This document shows positions 33,668 through 55,028 of a stretch of DNA of 55,028 bases, piece after piece; the stretch's first letter is position 1, and each line of letters opens with the position of its first letter. This DNA is from a virus. The position numbers and the translations under genes are program-made. The notes under the pieces were generated by a model. That model was not told where the DNA came from and searched no databases. It saw nothing but the letters and a program-made list of their open reading frames with translations. The stretch spans positions 1 through 55,028 of IMG/VR virus record IMGVR_UViG_3300025832_000011, one strand, 5' to 3'.

Positions 33668-34033
33668 TTACAGCATGTCCTCGCCGTCGCCTTCGCCGTT
33701 GCCTTCGCCGTTGCCTTCGCCGTCGCCTTCGCCAGCATCTTTCTTGGCAGGGGCTTTCTTGGCAGGGGCTTTTTTGGCAGGGGCTTTTTTGGCCGAGCCG
33801 ACTTTGACAGGATCATGTTCTCTGTCAGAGTCTTTGCACAGTTCGATTGCGCCCTTGTCGAGCAGTTCCTTGCAAGTGTCGCTGTCCGGGTCGATCTCAA
33901 AGCGGCGTTTGGCCGGAATGATAACGACCTTCGGGGGCGTGGGCGCGATGCCTTTGGCTTTGTCGCCAGCCTTGCCGGGAACGTCTGTGATGTGGACCTC
34001 TGTGATCGCACGGTACGTTTTTGAAGCAGCCAT
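33668..34033 (-). CDS. Small head-region protein with AKKAP repeats and acidic tail
   Basis: A 121-residue protein. Residues 1-75 form a small domain (YRAITEVHITDVPG onward). Then come lysine-rich repeats (AKKAP, four times) and a Gly/Glu/Asp/Asn repeat that ends GEGDGEDML, one of the acidic-tail proteins. The opposite charges of the two repeat blocks are notable. It is located between capsid and connector genes and may be a head completion or decoration protein. Confidence 0.6.
   Translation of the reverse strand: MAASKTYRAITEVHITDVPGKAGDKAKGIAPTPPKVVIIPAKRRFEIDPDSDTCKELLDKGAIELCKDSDREHDPVKVGSAKKAPAKKAPAKKAPAKKDAGEGDGEGNGEGNGEGDGEDML
33677..33793. repeat. Coding microrepeats: 12-bp and 15-bp units
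   Basis: Two tandem arrays lie within the small head-region gene. A 12-bp unit GCCTTCGCCGTT-like repeats over about 33677-33734, and a 15-bp unit TTCTTGGCAGGGGCT repeats from 33741 (33741, 33756, 33771, partial at 33786). They encode the acidic GEGNGEGD and basic AKKAP repeats and could vary in number by slippage. Confidence 0.75.
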
Positions 34034-50693: not shown

Positions 50694-50718
50694 GTGATTA
50701 AGCAAAATGGAGAATGTA

Positions 50719-51012
50719 ATGCCCACCTATAAGAAACCCTCGGACGCTGCGAGCAAGTTGCACCAGCTTTTACTGACGGCTGTGCCTCCCAATAAGCATG
50801 GGAACAAGACCCTGACCGAATTGGCCCGCCTCACTAAACTCTCAAAATGGGCGATTCGCAAATGGATTAACAACGAGAAATTGTCCCCTGAGCGCGCCAT
50901 GCAGATCGTCAACATATCGAAGATCACGGGATATGATGTGGATGGTAAACCGATTCTTGGCATGGCTCGTGTCAAGCTAATTGATTTCCACGAGTTCGTT
51001 TACAAAGACTAA
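50719..51012 (+). CDS. Small HTH transcriptional regulator
   Basis: A 97-residue protein. LTELARLTKLSKWAIRKWIN is a helix-turn-helix of the Cro/CI-like type, followed by LSPERAMQIVNISKITG. GGAG lies six bases before the ATG at 50719; the in-frame ATG at 50707 has no site. The gene lies directly beside two dyads that cover divergent promoters, so it is probably an autoregulated switch that balances leftward and rightward transcription. Confidence 0.75.
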   Translation: MPTYKKPSDAASKLHQLLLTAVPPNKHGNKTLTELARLTKLSKWAIRKWINNEKLSPERAMQIVNISKITGYDVDGKPILGMARVKLIDFHEFVYKD

Positions 51013-51082: not shown

Positions 51083-53887
51083 ATGACCACGCTTTCTGAC
51101 CTTTACTCGAATACGATTCTCTTCTCACTCGGGGCTGGCGACAACCTCGGAAAAGCCAAGAACACCTCGGAGACGATCCGTAAATTCGTTGATCGTTTCC
51201 GCAAGCCTCATGTGACCCCGGAGAAGTACCGGGAATACAAAGCCATGAATGATCAGCGCCAGCGGACCCTGAAGGGGATCGCCGGATGGATGATGCGCGG
51301 CTCGATCAAGAAGGGCGAGAATCGCAACCGCAACTCGATCCAGCCCAGCAAGTTGATGACGCTGGACATCGACTATGCGACCCCCGAGTTCGTTGAGATG
51401 CTACTGGCCGGGAAGATACTGCCCGGCGCGGCCTTCATTGCCCACAGCACACGCTCCCACACCCCCGAGAAGCCTCGCCTCCGAATCATCATCTTCCTGA
51501 AGGATGCCGTGAGCCGCGACCGCTATCAGGCAGCCAGCCGGATCACCGCGCAGGCAGCCGATCCCGAGATGCAGTGGGTGGACAAGGTATCGTTCCGTCC
51601 TGCTCAGATGATGTACATGCCAACCGTCTCCAAAGACATGGAGAAGCACTATGTCTTCTACGAACAGGGTGGCGAACTCTGGGACCATGAAGACGCCATC
51701 GAACAGTGGGAATTGCTGAACGACTCGGCCACCGACATCGCAAACCTGCCCCGGACGCCGGGCGAGGACGAGTTGCGCGAAGCAGCCGACTTTGCCGAAG
51801 ACCCTCTGGACAAAAAGGGTCCGGTCGGAGACTTCTGCCGCGCCTACTCGATCACCGATCTGGTCGAGGGCAAGGATGGCGAGCCGGGTATTCTGGCTCA
51901 CCTTTACACGGCGACCGAGTGGCACAACGGGGCCATCACACGGATGACGTGGCTCGGGGGCGGCAGTTCCAACGGCGCGGTCGTCTACGATGACAAGTTC
52001 GTCTACTCGCACCACGGCACCGACCCGACTGCCGACAAGCTGGTCAACGCCTACGATCTGGTCCGCATCCACCTCTTCGAGAAGTTTGACGAAAAGGCTG
52101 ACAGTGACACGGCGATGAAAGACCTGCCGTCCACCAAGAAGATGACCGAGTTCCTGAGCGATAATAAGCACTTCAGGATCGCCCAGACCGAGAGCCGCTA
52201 CAACATCGAAGACATGCTGTCCGATGATGACGTGGATTATGATGCTGGGTCAGAACGTGACATAGACGAAGGCGAGTTGTCCGAGATGGACGACCTGCTG
52301 GGGACTCCTGTCGCCAGCATTGCCGCGCCTAGATTGCGCAAGAGCCACCGCAGGAACCTCGCCGAAAAACCGCCGAAGAACTGGATCGCTTCCCAACTGA
52401 GCCTAACGGCTGACGGGAAGATCGAGAACAATTCGTGGAACATAGGGATGATCCTCATGAACGATCCCCGTCTCTGGCGGAAGATCGGGCGCAACGAGTT
52501 CAACTACCAGATCGCTATGGTCGATGACGTGAAAAGCAAGATGGAACTGCTCGTCCCCTACGAGTGCAAAGACAAAGACAATGGAGACCGCTGGCAGGAC
52601 CACTTCGACAATCTCTGCCGCACCTTGCTTGAGGCCCCTACGGACAAGGGTGGCTACGGGATGTCTGTGCCGATGGAGAAGGTGCGGCAGCAGATCGACA
52701 ACGTGGCTCGGAGGAACAGTTTCCATCCGGTTCAGGAGCGCATCCTCGACCACGCAGAGAACGGCGAACCGGGCTTCGACATCGAACGGGTGTTCCTTGA
52801 TTACTTCGGGGCCAAAGAAGACAACGCTTATACGCGGCAGGCTTCGCGGCTGTTCATGATCGCCTCGGTCGCTCGGGTGTTCGAGCCGGGCTGCAAGTTC
52901 GACTTCGCTGTGATCTTCGAAGGCAAGCAGGGTCTCGGTAAATCGACCGCGATCAAGAGGCTCTACGGGCAGGAATACTTCGGCGAACTTGAGACCGATC
53001 TGGGGAACAAGAAAGAGACCGCAGAACACATGATGGGCAAGTGGGCCTTGGAACTGCCGGAATTGTCAGCCCTGACCAAAGGTAAAGCTGACGCCAACAG
53101 CACCAAGTCCTTCATGTCGCGGCAGCATGACGATGTGCGTCTCTCCTATGAGAAGCATATGGCACAGTTGCCGCGCCAGTGCGTGATCTACGGTACGACC
53201 AACAACAAAGAGTATCTGAGCGACCCGACCGGGAACCGTCGCTTCTGGCCCATGCCTGTAAAGGACGAACCCATCGACTCCATCGCCATCATGCGCGCCA
53301 AGGCGAGCATCTGGCGTGCAGCCTATGAGGCGTATGTCGAGATGCGGTCCAACACGCACACATCTCTCGACCTGCCCTTGTTCCTGACCGGAGAAGCCGC
53401 CGAGATCGGATTGCGGATGCAGGAGGGTGCTCGCAAAGAGGGGACCGCCGAGAATTGGGCGAAACAGGCGGTAGAGTGGGCCGATGAAAAGATGACCCTG
53501 CAATCCTTCATATCTGTGTCTAACTTAGGAGACGGCTTAGAACAGCGGTACAAGGGCTACGATGTAGACAACACGCTCGTCTGTCGGGTTGGGGTCGCAC
53601 AGAAGGAACTGTTCCGCGAAGTCCTCGGGGTGAACAAGAACACCTCTATCTCGCAGCAGGAGCAAAACCTTTACCTCGAATACCTAGAACATATGCAGCG
53701 GCTAGGTTGGGTAAAATCTAGGAATTTGATCGGTGGGGTTCAGGCCGTTCGCATGATCCGACCGGACTTGACCAGAAACGAAAAGTACGAAGGCTTCCGG
53801 GTGGTCGGATCGGCGGATGCCCCAGAATCCGCGACCCCACAAGTTGACGATGACGAAGGCTACGGAGACAACAACGACCTACTTTAA
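51083..53887 (+). CDS. Primase-helicase with VirE/D5-like ATPase domain
   Basis: A 934-residue replication protein. The N-terminal part has MTLDIDYATPE (Asp95, Asp97) and a later HSTRSHTPEKPRLRIIIF, the pattern of archaeo-eukaryotic-type primase domains. The C-terminal part is a VirE-type superfamily 3-like ATPase: EGKQGLGKST (Lys620), WALELPELSAL and YGTTNNKEYLSDPTGNRRFW. An acidic linker with MDDLLG separates the parts around residue 410. It ends YGDNNDLL. It would open and prime DNA, and the origin-like region lies just downstream. Confidence 0.88.
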   Translation: MTTLSDLYSNTILFSLGAGDNLGKAKNTSETIRKFVDRFRKPHVTPEKYREYKAMNDQRQRTLKGIAGWMMRGSIKKGENRNRNSIQPSKLMTLDIDYATPEFVEMLLAGKILPGAAFIAHSTRSHTPEKPRLRIIIFLKDAVSRDRYQAASRITAQAADPEMQWVDKVSFRPAQMMYMPTVSKDMEKHYVFYEQGGELWDHEDAIEQWELLNDSATDIANLPRTPGEDELREAADFAEDPLDKKGPVGDFCRAYSITDLVEGKDGEPGILAHLYTATEWHNGAITRMTWLGGGSSNGAVVYDDKFVYSHHGTDPTADKLVNAYDLVRIHLFEKFDEKADSDTAMKDLPSTKKMTEFLSDNKHFRIAQTESRYNIEDMLSDDDVDYDAGSERDIDEGELSEMDDLLGTPVASIAAPRLRKSHRRNLAEKPPKNWIASQLSLTADGKIENNSWNIGMILMNDPRLWRKIGRNEFNYQIAMVDDVKSKMELLVPYECKDKDNGDRWQDHFDNLCRTLLEAPTDKGGYGMSVPMEKVRQQIDNVARRNSFHPVQERILDHAENGEPGFDIERVFLDYFGAKEDNAYTRQASRLFMIASVARVFEPGCKFDFAVIFEGKQGLGKSTAIKRLYGQEYFGELETDLGNKKETAEHMMGKWALELPELSALTKGKADANSTKSFMSRQHDDVRLSYEKHMAQLPRQCVIYGTTNNKEYLSDPTGNRRFWPMPVKDEPIDSIAIMRAKASIWRAAYEAYVEMRSNTHTSLDLPLFLTGEAAEIGLRMQEGARKEGTAENWAKQAVEWADEKMTLQSFISVSNLGDGLEQRYKGYDVDNTLVCRVGVAQKELFREVLGVNKNTSISQQEQNLYLEYLEHMQRLGWVKSRNLIGGVQAVRMIRPDLTRNEKYEGFRVVGSADAPESATPQVDDDEGYGDNNDLL

Positions 53888-53901: not shown

Positions 53902-54291
53902 ATGACTATCCAACCATATCTTGACCAGCATGGCGTACCTTACCCCCACGACCTCGTGGACGAGGATTACGAGAAGAACCGCGATCTGATCAAGAATACC
54001 CCCTACGGTGTCTGGCTGCTGGAAGACGGCACGGAGATGCTGTTCAATCGGAAGTACAAGGCCATCGCCCAGCGCGACTCAGAGGGTTCTCGTCGTGTCG
54101 CCATGGATGGTACGAAACACATCTCTGACATACTCAAGGTCAAGTATCACGAGCGGTACTTTCGCTCTGAAAGGCACTTCAACCCCCTCGTCAATCAGGG
54201 GAACATGGACCGTTGCACCATGATCCTCGGTAAGTTCTTTCTCGGGGATGACATCGGAGAGTTCGTGATGGGGCCGAACGTGTACCCGTAA
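53902..54291 (+). CDS. Hypothetical protein
   Basis: A 129-residue protein, MTIQPYLDQHGVPYPHDLVD at the start and FFLGDDIGEFVMGPNVYP at the end. AACCAAGGAGACTGCA precedes the ATG. It is co-transcribed with the primase-helicase and followed by a terminator. No family recognised. The end is hydrophobic rather than acidic, unlike its neighbour. Confidence 0.68.
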   Translation: MTIQPYLDQHGVPYPHDLVDEDYEKNRDLIKNTPYGVWLLEDGTEMLFNRKYKAIAQRDSEGSRRVAMDGTKHISDILKVKYHERYFRSERHFNPLVNQGNMDRCTMILGKFFLGDDIGEFVMGPNVYP

Positions 54292-54317
54292 CCCCACCCA
54301 CCGTAAACTACCCACAG

Positions 54318-54351
54318 CCCTCTCACGGTGATCCCCGTGAGGGGGTTTTTT
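54318..54351 (+). terminator. Rho-independent terminator
   Basis: CTCACGG-TGATC-CCGTGAG, extended by flanking C and G runs with one mismatch, is followed by TTTTTT. It is 30 bases after the stop at 54291 and ends the regulator/primase operon. Confidence 0.85.
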
Positions 54352-54355
54352 GTTA

Positions 54356-54396
54356 CCTGTGTGGGTAGACAACCCTCAGTAGCTTACCCACACAGG
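54356..54396. promoter_or_regulatory. 12-bp inverted repeat around the promoter-spacer core
   Basis: CCTGTGTGGGTA (54356-54367) and TACCCACACAGG (54385-54396) are a perfect inverted repeat with a 17-base centre. The centre, GACAACCCTCAGTAGCT, aligns over all 17 positions with the spacers of the promoters at 1240 (GGCAACCCACAGTAACC) and 7494. The -35 and -10 are here replaced by repeat arms, so a protein, not only sigma factor, may recognise the core. Confidence 0.65.
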
Positions 54397-54444
54397 GGAT
54401 ATTACCCTCACCGTGGGTATTATAGTACCCACCGTCACGGGGAT

Positions 54445-54820
54445 TTGCAGGGCATGTCAGGGGGAATCCGGTATTTGCAGGGGGGTTGCTGGGGGGTTGC
54501 AGGGGGCCTGCTACACGTAAGTCATTGATAACAAAAGAGAAATTGGCCTCCTGTCAGGGTTGCATGGGGGTGGGGCGTTTTTCAGAATTATAAGAGAAGA
54601 AAAAAGAAGAAGAGAGGATGTGTGCAGAGCATATCAGGGGGATACCCCCATATACGCCCCTTCCCCTACTCTTACCATTATACCCCCTACCCCCCTGCAA
54701 CTTACTATATATACTTTATATATTGTATATATTATTGTTATATAACAATAGGATGGCATAGAAAAATCAGTTTGCAGGGGGGCCTGCTAACCCCCTGCTA
54801 CCCCCCTGCAACCCCTGCAA
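54445..54820. other. Origin-like region: G-rich repeats, AT-rich core and palindrome
   Basis: Seven copies of TTGCAGGG(GGG): forward at 54445, 54475, 54497 and 54772; inverted at 54690, 54801 and 54812. The pair 54690-54700 and 54772-54782 is an 11-bp perfect inverted repeat that encloses an AT-rich core (about 54701-54752) with an 18-bp palindrome TATTGTTATATAACAATA (54733-54750). Four G-runs at 54460-54506 could form a G-quadruplex. There is no gene. The features suit a replication origin with a melting region; packaging or recombination sites are alternatives. Confidence 0.55.
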
Positions 54821-54899
54821 ATAAACCCCACAGCAAAAAATATCCCCCACAGCCGTTACCCACGGGGAAAATGCCCCCTCACGGTAAAATGGGTAAGCC

Positions 54900-55028
54900 A
54901 TGCTGACCTTTCCCAAAAACGCTGCCAACCCGAGGCTCAGCGCACCCCCTGACGCACCCCCCAGAGCGGGGAAGGACCCGAGCGACCCCTCCACGGGGGA
55001 GACGGCCACGCACCCGGCCCCACGGCCC
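54900..55028 (+). CDS. Possible small Pro-rich ORF crossing the window edge
   Basis: An open frame of 43 codons from the ATG at 54900 reaches the last base without a stop. If base 55028 joins base 1, the next codon is TAG (1-3), followed at once by a terminator. The product would be rich in Pro, Ala and charged residues. The ribosome-binding site is weak (GGGTAAGCC). It is listed because the frame and stop fit a circular map; it may not be translated. Confidence 0.3.
   Translation, partial: MLTFPKNAANPRLSAPPDAPPRAGKDPSDPSTGETATHPAPRP

Follow-up and report, generated by a model that had tools for sequence, protein, structure and literature searches.

The alpha protein of phage P4 combines primase, helicase and origin-binding functions, and its iterons lie near an AT-rich stretch (ori, crr). 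In SaPI systems, the C-terminal domain of the Rep protein reads iterons located just 3′ of its own gene, and the SCCmec helicase Cch2 uses its C-terminal domain to bind direct repeats that follow its gene (PMC7581432). The origins of PICIs always carry two iteron sets that flank an AT-rich region (PMC6092414). Repeats in opposite orientations have been described as loading two head-to-head hexamers, and an analogy between SaPI origins and the SV40 origin with its large T-antigen has been drawn (PMC9894130). In the literature searched, we found no mapped origin for chi-like phages.

The window (the whole 55,028-nucleotide stretch that was analysed) is a separate virus record in its own right. 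Its closest named relative is Synechococcus virus S-ESS1 (Casjensviridae), and the Ruegeria phages DSS3-P1, V7, V11 and V18, all Casjensviridae, are further relatives. The primase gene adjoins a cos site of the Chi type. Judged by this cos core, the primase-next-to-cos layout and the nearest named matches, which fall within the family, the window phage is a chi-like relative of the Casjensviridae. Specifically, the 12-base cohesive end of Salmonella phage Chi, 5′-GGTGCGCAGAGC, was determined experimentally (PMC4342425), and its reverse complement matches the window near the right end at 11 of 12 positions. The related contig L006 ends one base beyond the cos-equivalent point, and the corresponding position is where the DSS3-P1 record stops. 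Together with the cos match, these ends indicate that the window contig reads through cos and continues for ~80 bp beyond it, and the noncoding region is thus the interval between the primase-helicase gene and cos. A noncoding region between primase and cos is also present in Chi, Enc34, Pibe, Smarc5 and Nazgul, and cos is annotated in the records of the last four. The features of the locus are as follows.

50707..51012, + strand: gene for an HTH-domain protein, just upstream of the primase gene (HTH_3 match, E=1e-4)
51083..53887, + strand: primase-helicase gene, VapE/PriRep type, proposed initiator (VapE-like domain, 1e-62)
53558..53797, + strand: proposed iteron reader, the winged-helix-like C-terminal domain (aa 826-905) of the primase-helicase
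53902..54291, + strand: small conserved gene between primase and origin, 46% identical to L006 13218-13577
54309..54432: outer repeat family, left; TACCCAC at 54309+, 54361-, 54385+, 54413- and 54426+
54316..54353, + strand: intrinsic terminator (13-pair stem plus T run) for the transcript of the primase gene
54356-54367 / 54385-54396: 12-bp inverted repeat, within the left outer repeat family
54413..54432: operator-like element GTGGGTATTATAGTACCCAC, with an 18-mer identical in L006 though the iterons differ
54445..54567, + strand: left iteron array TTGCAGGG; copies at 54445, 54475, 54486 (one mismatch), 54497 and 54560 (one mismatch)
54690..54700, - strand: inner iteron CCCCCCTGCAA at the left edge of the AT core (exact TTGCAGGG at 54693-), left arm of an 11-bp inverted repeat
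54701..54770: AT-rich core, proposed melting site (37/40 bases A/T at peak)
54733-54750: 18-bp palindrome TATTGTTATATAACAATA inside the AT core
54772..54782, + strand: inner iteron TTGCAGGGGGG at the right edge of the AT core (exact TTGCAGGG at 54772+), right arm of the 11-bp inverted repeat
54793..54820, - strand: right iteron array; copies at 54793 (one mismatch), 54804 and 54813
54857..54863, + strand: outer repeat family, right copy, TACCCAC
54900..54946: cos region, comprising box ATGCTGACCT at 54900-54909 and the cos core
54935-54946: cos core GCTCAGCGCACC
54947..55028: sequence beyond cos, the opposite genome end joined on; GGACCCRAGCGACCCCTCC is common to L191 past its cos

Several observations concern the genome ends and other repeats. 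The box ATGCTGACCT by cos is kept in L006 and, as TTGCTGACCT, in L191, and may therefore be a packaging or regulatory site. Its reverse complement, AGGTCAGCAT, is found at 184-193 and 208-217 near the left contig end. Near that end, positions 50-171 hold a tandem repeat of period 39 in three copies, and the start of the DSS3-P1 record also has short tandem repeats. A 15-bp tandem repeat of about four copies lies within a coding region at 33724-33798. In the V18 record (NC_052970; L014 4195-4312), the last ~115 bases differ from V7 and DSS3-P1, and this terminal sequence, starting CTGTCTCTTATA, resembles residual Nextera adapter. The operator-like element at 54413-54432 includes a TATTATAGT box.

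The presence of the repeats, the AT-rich core and the palindromes is confirmed, and they far exceed chance expectation. The six exact TACCCAC and seven exact TTGCAGGG sites in both orientations, the 11-bp inverted repeat around the AT core with its 18-bp palindrome, and the 12-bp inverted repeat all lie where an initial annotation of this DNA had placed them. Across the whole window, TACCCAC occurs 12 times (3.3 expected) and TTGCAGGG nine times (2.0 expected), totals that were reached in 0/100 shuffles in either case. Seven TTGCAGGG copies fall at 54445-54820 and two elsewhere in the 55 kb; for TACCCAC, six are in the region and six elsewhere. The best 8-mer in the 1.1 kb after the primase gene has seven copies versus a shuffle maximum of four (p=0.005); elsewhere in the window, the best 8-mer reaches at most five copies in any 740-bp stretch. 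The two repeat families had been described as lying on either side of the core. Instead, the iteron, in the form TTGCAGGG(GGG), flanks the 70-bp AT core on both sides in mixed orientation (+++-|+--), and TACCCAC lies outside it, five copies to the left and one to the right. Counterparts of this outer TACCCAC/GTGGGTA family, GTGGGGGA, are found outside the iterons in L006 and L191.

Other signals were sought in the same region. The G-quadruplex suggested earlier fails a strict rule (four G-runs, loops up to 7) and could form only with one long loop; its G-runs are part of the iterons, and it is not a general component because it is absent from the AT-type iterons of relatives. GC skew, calculated by window and at third codon positions, follows the gene strand and gives no usable origin signal. 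A sigma-70 promoter scan returned a single weak match at chance level, and no DNA similarity of the origin region to known phages was found. Matches to Rfam were restricted to sub-threshold microRNA families and were rejected.

The gene that precedes this region encodes a candidate initiator. Its helicase part is closest to PriRep1 (PDB 7pds; 1e-40 by sequence, ~1e-22 by fold), and this nearest solved structure is of PriRep1 bound to dsDNA. The C-terminal domain is modelled as helix-helix-strand-strand, a winged-helix pattern, at medium confidence. The primase of L006 is 68% identical to that of the window overall, with 70-77% in the N-terminal and helicase parts and 41% in the C-terminal domain. 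No known family was matched by the small gene at 53902-54291, which is not needed for the layout because it is absent in V16. By BLASTP, the window enzyme and the P4-family primase of Chi give no significant alignment, and the homology to the Chi primase expected of a P4 alpha-type initiator is thus not seen. Since the Chi-type and VapE-type enzymes do not align, the same layout appears to be served by two distant initiator types.

The layout, with iterons and an AT core between primase and cos, recurs across the Casjensviridae, and the iteron is lineage-specific (TGTCGAGG, TGGAACAC, TTGTAACC, TTGTTACC, TTGTAATA, GTGACAGT and others). For example, L006 has TGTCGAGGGGGG where the window has TTGCAGGGGGG, in the same layout. 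The iterons are TGGAACAC in DSS3-P1, GGAACACC in L191, AGGGTGAG in RcAqua, GGTCCGAA in Nazgul, GTGACAGT in AhaSv and Bhz60, TTGTAACC in Chi, TTGTTACC in Pibe and TTGTAATA in Enc34. The best 8-mer is significant in 26/31 loci (p<=0.05 versus dinucleotide shuffles); these are not 26 independent events because several loci are near-duplicates, and they include L028, whose repeat looks like a coding repeat. The repeats of L027 and L028 (7x kb contigs) resemble coding periodicity and were not relied on. No significant exact 8-mer was found in five of the 31 loci, among them Inception, Kokobel1, AhMtk13b and FoX4, and degenerate GTGTGTCA-like copies can be seen by eye in Inception and Kokobel1. The AT-richest 40 bp lies within the iteron span in 21/27 loci (8.3 expected). 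An alignment scan of viral contigs yielded two weak loci of little use. In S-ESS1, the annotation divides the primase (L004 484-3325) between two overlapping ORFs, whose products were compared piecewise, and only half an origin is visible because the record is cut inside the AT core.

The initial annotation had made conservation of the repeats in relatives a test of its reading. Applied to the letters of the repeats, this test would have misled: the letters vary among relatives, whereas the position, the spacing, the two-orientation layout and the AT core are conserved. Copies to the right of the core lie at 673-, 691+ and 709+ in Chi, 667-, 685+ and 703+ in L020, and 290-, 307+ and 325+ in Enc34. 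Such a pattern, in which all copies change letters together at kept spacing, is what a sequence-specific reader would demand.

Natural exchanges point to the C-terminal domain of the neighbouring primase-helicase as this reader. Phages that are 90-100% identical in the primase and helicase domains but have a different C-terminal domain carry different iterons. YSD1 and L020 (FSL SP-030 type) are 99, 97 and 98% identical in three parts of the protein and 67% in the C-terminus; their origin DNA is mostly 27-48% identical in sliding windows and then 93-95% up to cos, and their iterons are TTGTAACC and CTGTTACC, respectively. For Smarc5 and L166, the corresponding values are 92, 90, 93 and then 56%, with iterons TTGTTACC and GTAACAGT. 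Phage sal2 has three differences from L020 in aa 1-719 and a C-terminus 96% identical to that of YSD1. A YSD1-type iteron was predicted from this C-terminus beforehand, and four exact copies of TTGTAACC and none of CTGTTACC were found. ST-374 is 98% identical to YSD1 in aa 1-719 and 90% in the C-terminus, and has TTGTAATA iterons like Enc34 and Soft. Among phages with the window type of enzyme, V16 and DSS3-P1 share ~96% DNA identity from the upstream gene to the end of the N-terminal primase domain (99% aa in that domain), and then only 33% in the helicase and 32% in the C-terminus; V16 has AATCGGAC iterons, and identity returns right after the last one.

These exchanges also bear on whether the repeats might be terminase-binding sites of the packaging region (cosB-like) instead of an origin. 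The repeats do lie <500 bp from cos, and cos phages have terminase sites by cos. However, the cos-side block is conserved separately and is unchanged when the iterons change (V16/DSS3-P1; YSD1/L020), YSD1 and L019 have the same iterons with a different cos flank, and the iterons track the helicase C-terminus. We therefore regard a packaging role for the repeats as very unlikely. The cos region does account for the last ~130 bp of the right end, all of which had been read as origin-like; that reading is supported up to 54880.

A candidate specificity residue emerges from the Chi-type enzymes, whose C-terminus is likewise modelled as helix-helix-strand-strand and places residue 804 in the first strand of the wing, although it gives only weak fold matches. 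Lys804 is present in 9/9 compared phages with TTGTAACC- or TTGTTACC-like iterons, Ser in two with other iterons, and Cys804 is common to ST-374, Enc34 and Soft, all with TTGTAATA iterons. Column 804 is the sole strictly discriminating column among 861, but one or more such columns also occur for 18 of the 220 possible groupings of three members, so that by itself the separation of ...CC from ...TA iterons by K or C at this wing residue is suggestive and not proof. Columns 744 and 777, which split TTGTA from TTGTT iterons, are also C-terminal. Among ten phages, pairs with the same iteron have C-termini more alike than the rest of the protein predicts (permutation p=0.03), and the same test is not significant for the other parts of the primase. 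This fine mapping derives from Chi-type enzymes, which do not align with the window enzyme; evidence from the window type is limited to the V16/DSS3-P1 swap, which is wider and takes in the helicase as well as the C-terminus, and to the rapid divergence of the C-terminus between the window and L006.

An HTH protein had also been proposed to bind the repeats, which could in principle form an array of operators for a repressor, for instance the HTH protein whose gene precedes the primase gene or one encoded beside the origin. Each of these phages has an HTH gene adjoining the primase, some Chi-type phages have one by the origin, and the operator-like element at 54413-54432 is conserved. In contrast, in both swaps checked, phages with different iterons are ~98% identical in the region of the upstream HTH gene, and this gene therefore does not appear to set the iteron. 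Furthermore, the annotations of Enc34, Pibe, V7 and ST-374 include no HTH gene on the origin side, and the sole strictly discriminating primase column is C-terminal. An operator array is accordingly a highly improbable explanation of the iterons, and the HTH-domain protein is probably a regulator rather than their reader. The outer TACCCAC family may still be such an array.

Alternatively, the C-terminus and origin might be exchanged together through physical linkage only, with the iterons read by another phage or host protein. The C-terminal codons adjoin the origin, so one crossover moves both (V16/DSS3-P1; YSD1/L020), and because much origin DNA changes with the C-terminus, linkage instead of recognition could explain some cases. 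Linkage as the whole explanation is unlikely, given that the letters of all iteron copies change together with their positions kept, that the distant TTGTAATA phages Enc34, Soft and ST-374 share C804, and that iteron reading by a C-terminal domain is known from related Rep helicases (PMC7581432).

A replication origin remains the best reading, as first proposed, on comparative evidence that goes well beyond iterons plus an AT-rich stretch. The layout, its family-wide conservation, its co-variation with the initiator C-terminus in natural exchanges and the constancy of the HTH protein can each be read from sequence comparison. They make it highly likely that this chi-like phage has its replication origin at 54290-54880, with iterons that would be read by the primase-helicase C-terminus; DNA copying thus very probably starts in the noncoding end of the genome. 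As part of the same explanation, the iteron array and C-terminal domain would form one specificity unit, passed as a cassette between related phages.

A self-loading initiator helicase of the SaPI/PICI type is the best model, because the closest solved relative is PriRep1. Subunits of the primase-helicase would recognise the TTGCAGGG iterons through the C-terminal winged-helix-like domain, and iterons in both orientations would load helicase hexamers on each side of the AT core. The core at 54701-54770 would then melt and the two helicases travel apart, giving bidirectional replication primed by the N-terminal domain of the same polypeptide. The outer GTGGGTA/TACCCAC sites may bind a second protein, other than the primase-helicase.

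This reading locates a precise candidate origin in >20 genomes, and tailed phages, too, would use a type of origin that has been described as restricted to phage satellites. The iteron would be predictable from the C-terminus, and vice versa, and the natural domain swaps with their candidate specificity residue offer a route to decoding how a self-loading helicase reads its origin. There is perhaps an even chance that the Casjensviridae diversify by swapping this origin-specificity cassette (C-terminal reader plus iterons), whose joints would lie between helicase and reader and immediately ahead of cos, and that a residue-804 code (K for ...CC, C for ...TA) underlies it. If so, closely related phages on one host would carry origins that do not cross-initiate, and cassette swapping might be an escape from origin-parasitising satellites or co-infecting phages.

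The origin is of a kind known in mechanism, and its setting in tailed phages is not described in the papers searched; the comparative evidence for what determines its specificity is unusually direct. Like P4 alpha, a single protein would be primase, helicase and proposed origin binder, with iterons near an AT-rich stretch; however, P4-family is the annotation of the Chi-type primases, and the window enzyme, of VapE type, does not align with them. SCCmec Cch2 differs in belonging to a chromosomal cassette with three short iterons and a separate primase. With SV40, the likeness is in opposite-orientation repeats that direct head-to-head self-loading hexamers, but T-antigen reads DNA with its N-terminal domain and no homology is claimed. 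The closest likeness is to the SaPI/PICI pri-rep-ori systems (PriRep1, 7pds; SaPI5 Rep, 7ola and 7om0), which share the VapE/PriRep-type initiator helicase (identified here by the 7pds matches) encoded next to the origin, iterons flanking an AT-rich region, element-specific iterons, and an origin just 3′ of the initiator gene (one 390-bp ORF intervenes in the window and none in V16). The window is nevertheless not a PICI, a helper-induced satellite without virion genes, because its gene layout agrees with that of its nearest relatives, and these are complete tailed phages that encode a terminase of their own. Unlike in SaPI/PICI systems, the origin sits in a tailed-phage genome by its own cos, primase and helicase form one polypeptide, a second, outer repeat family is present, and the C-terminal reader and iterons are swapped among close relatives of the phage.
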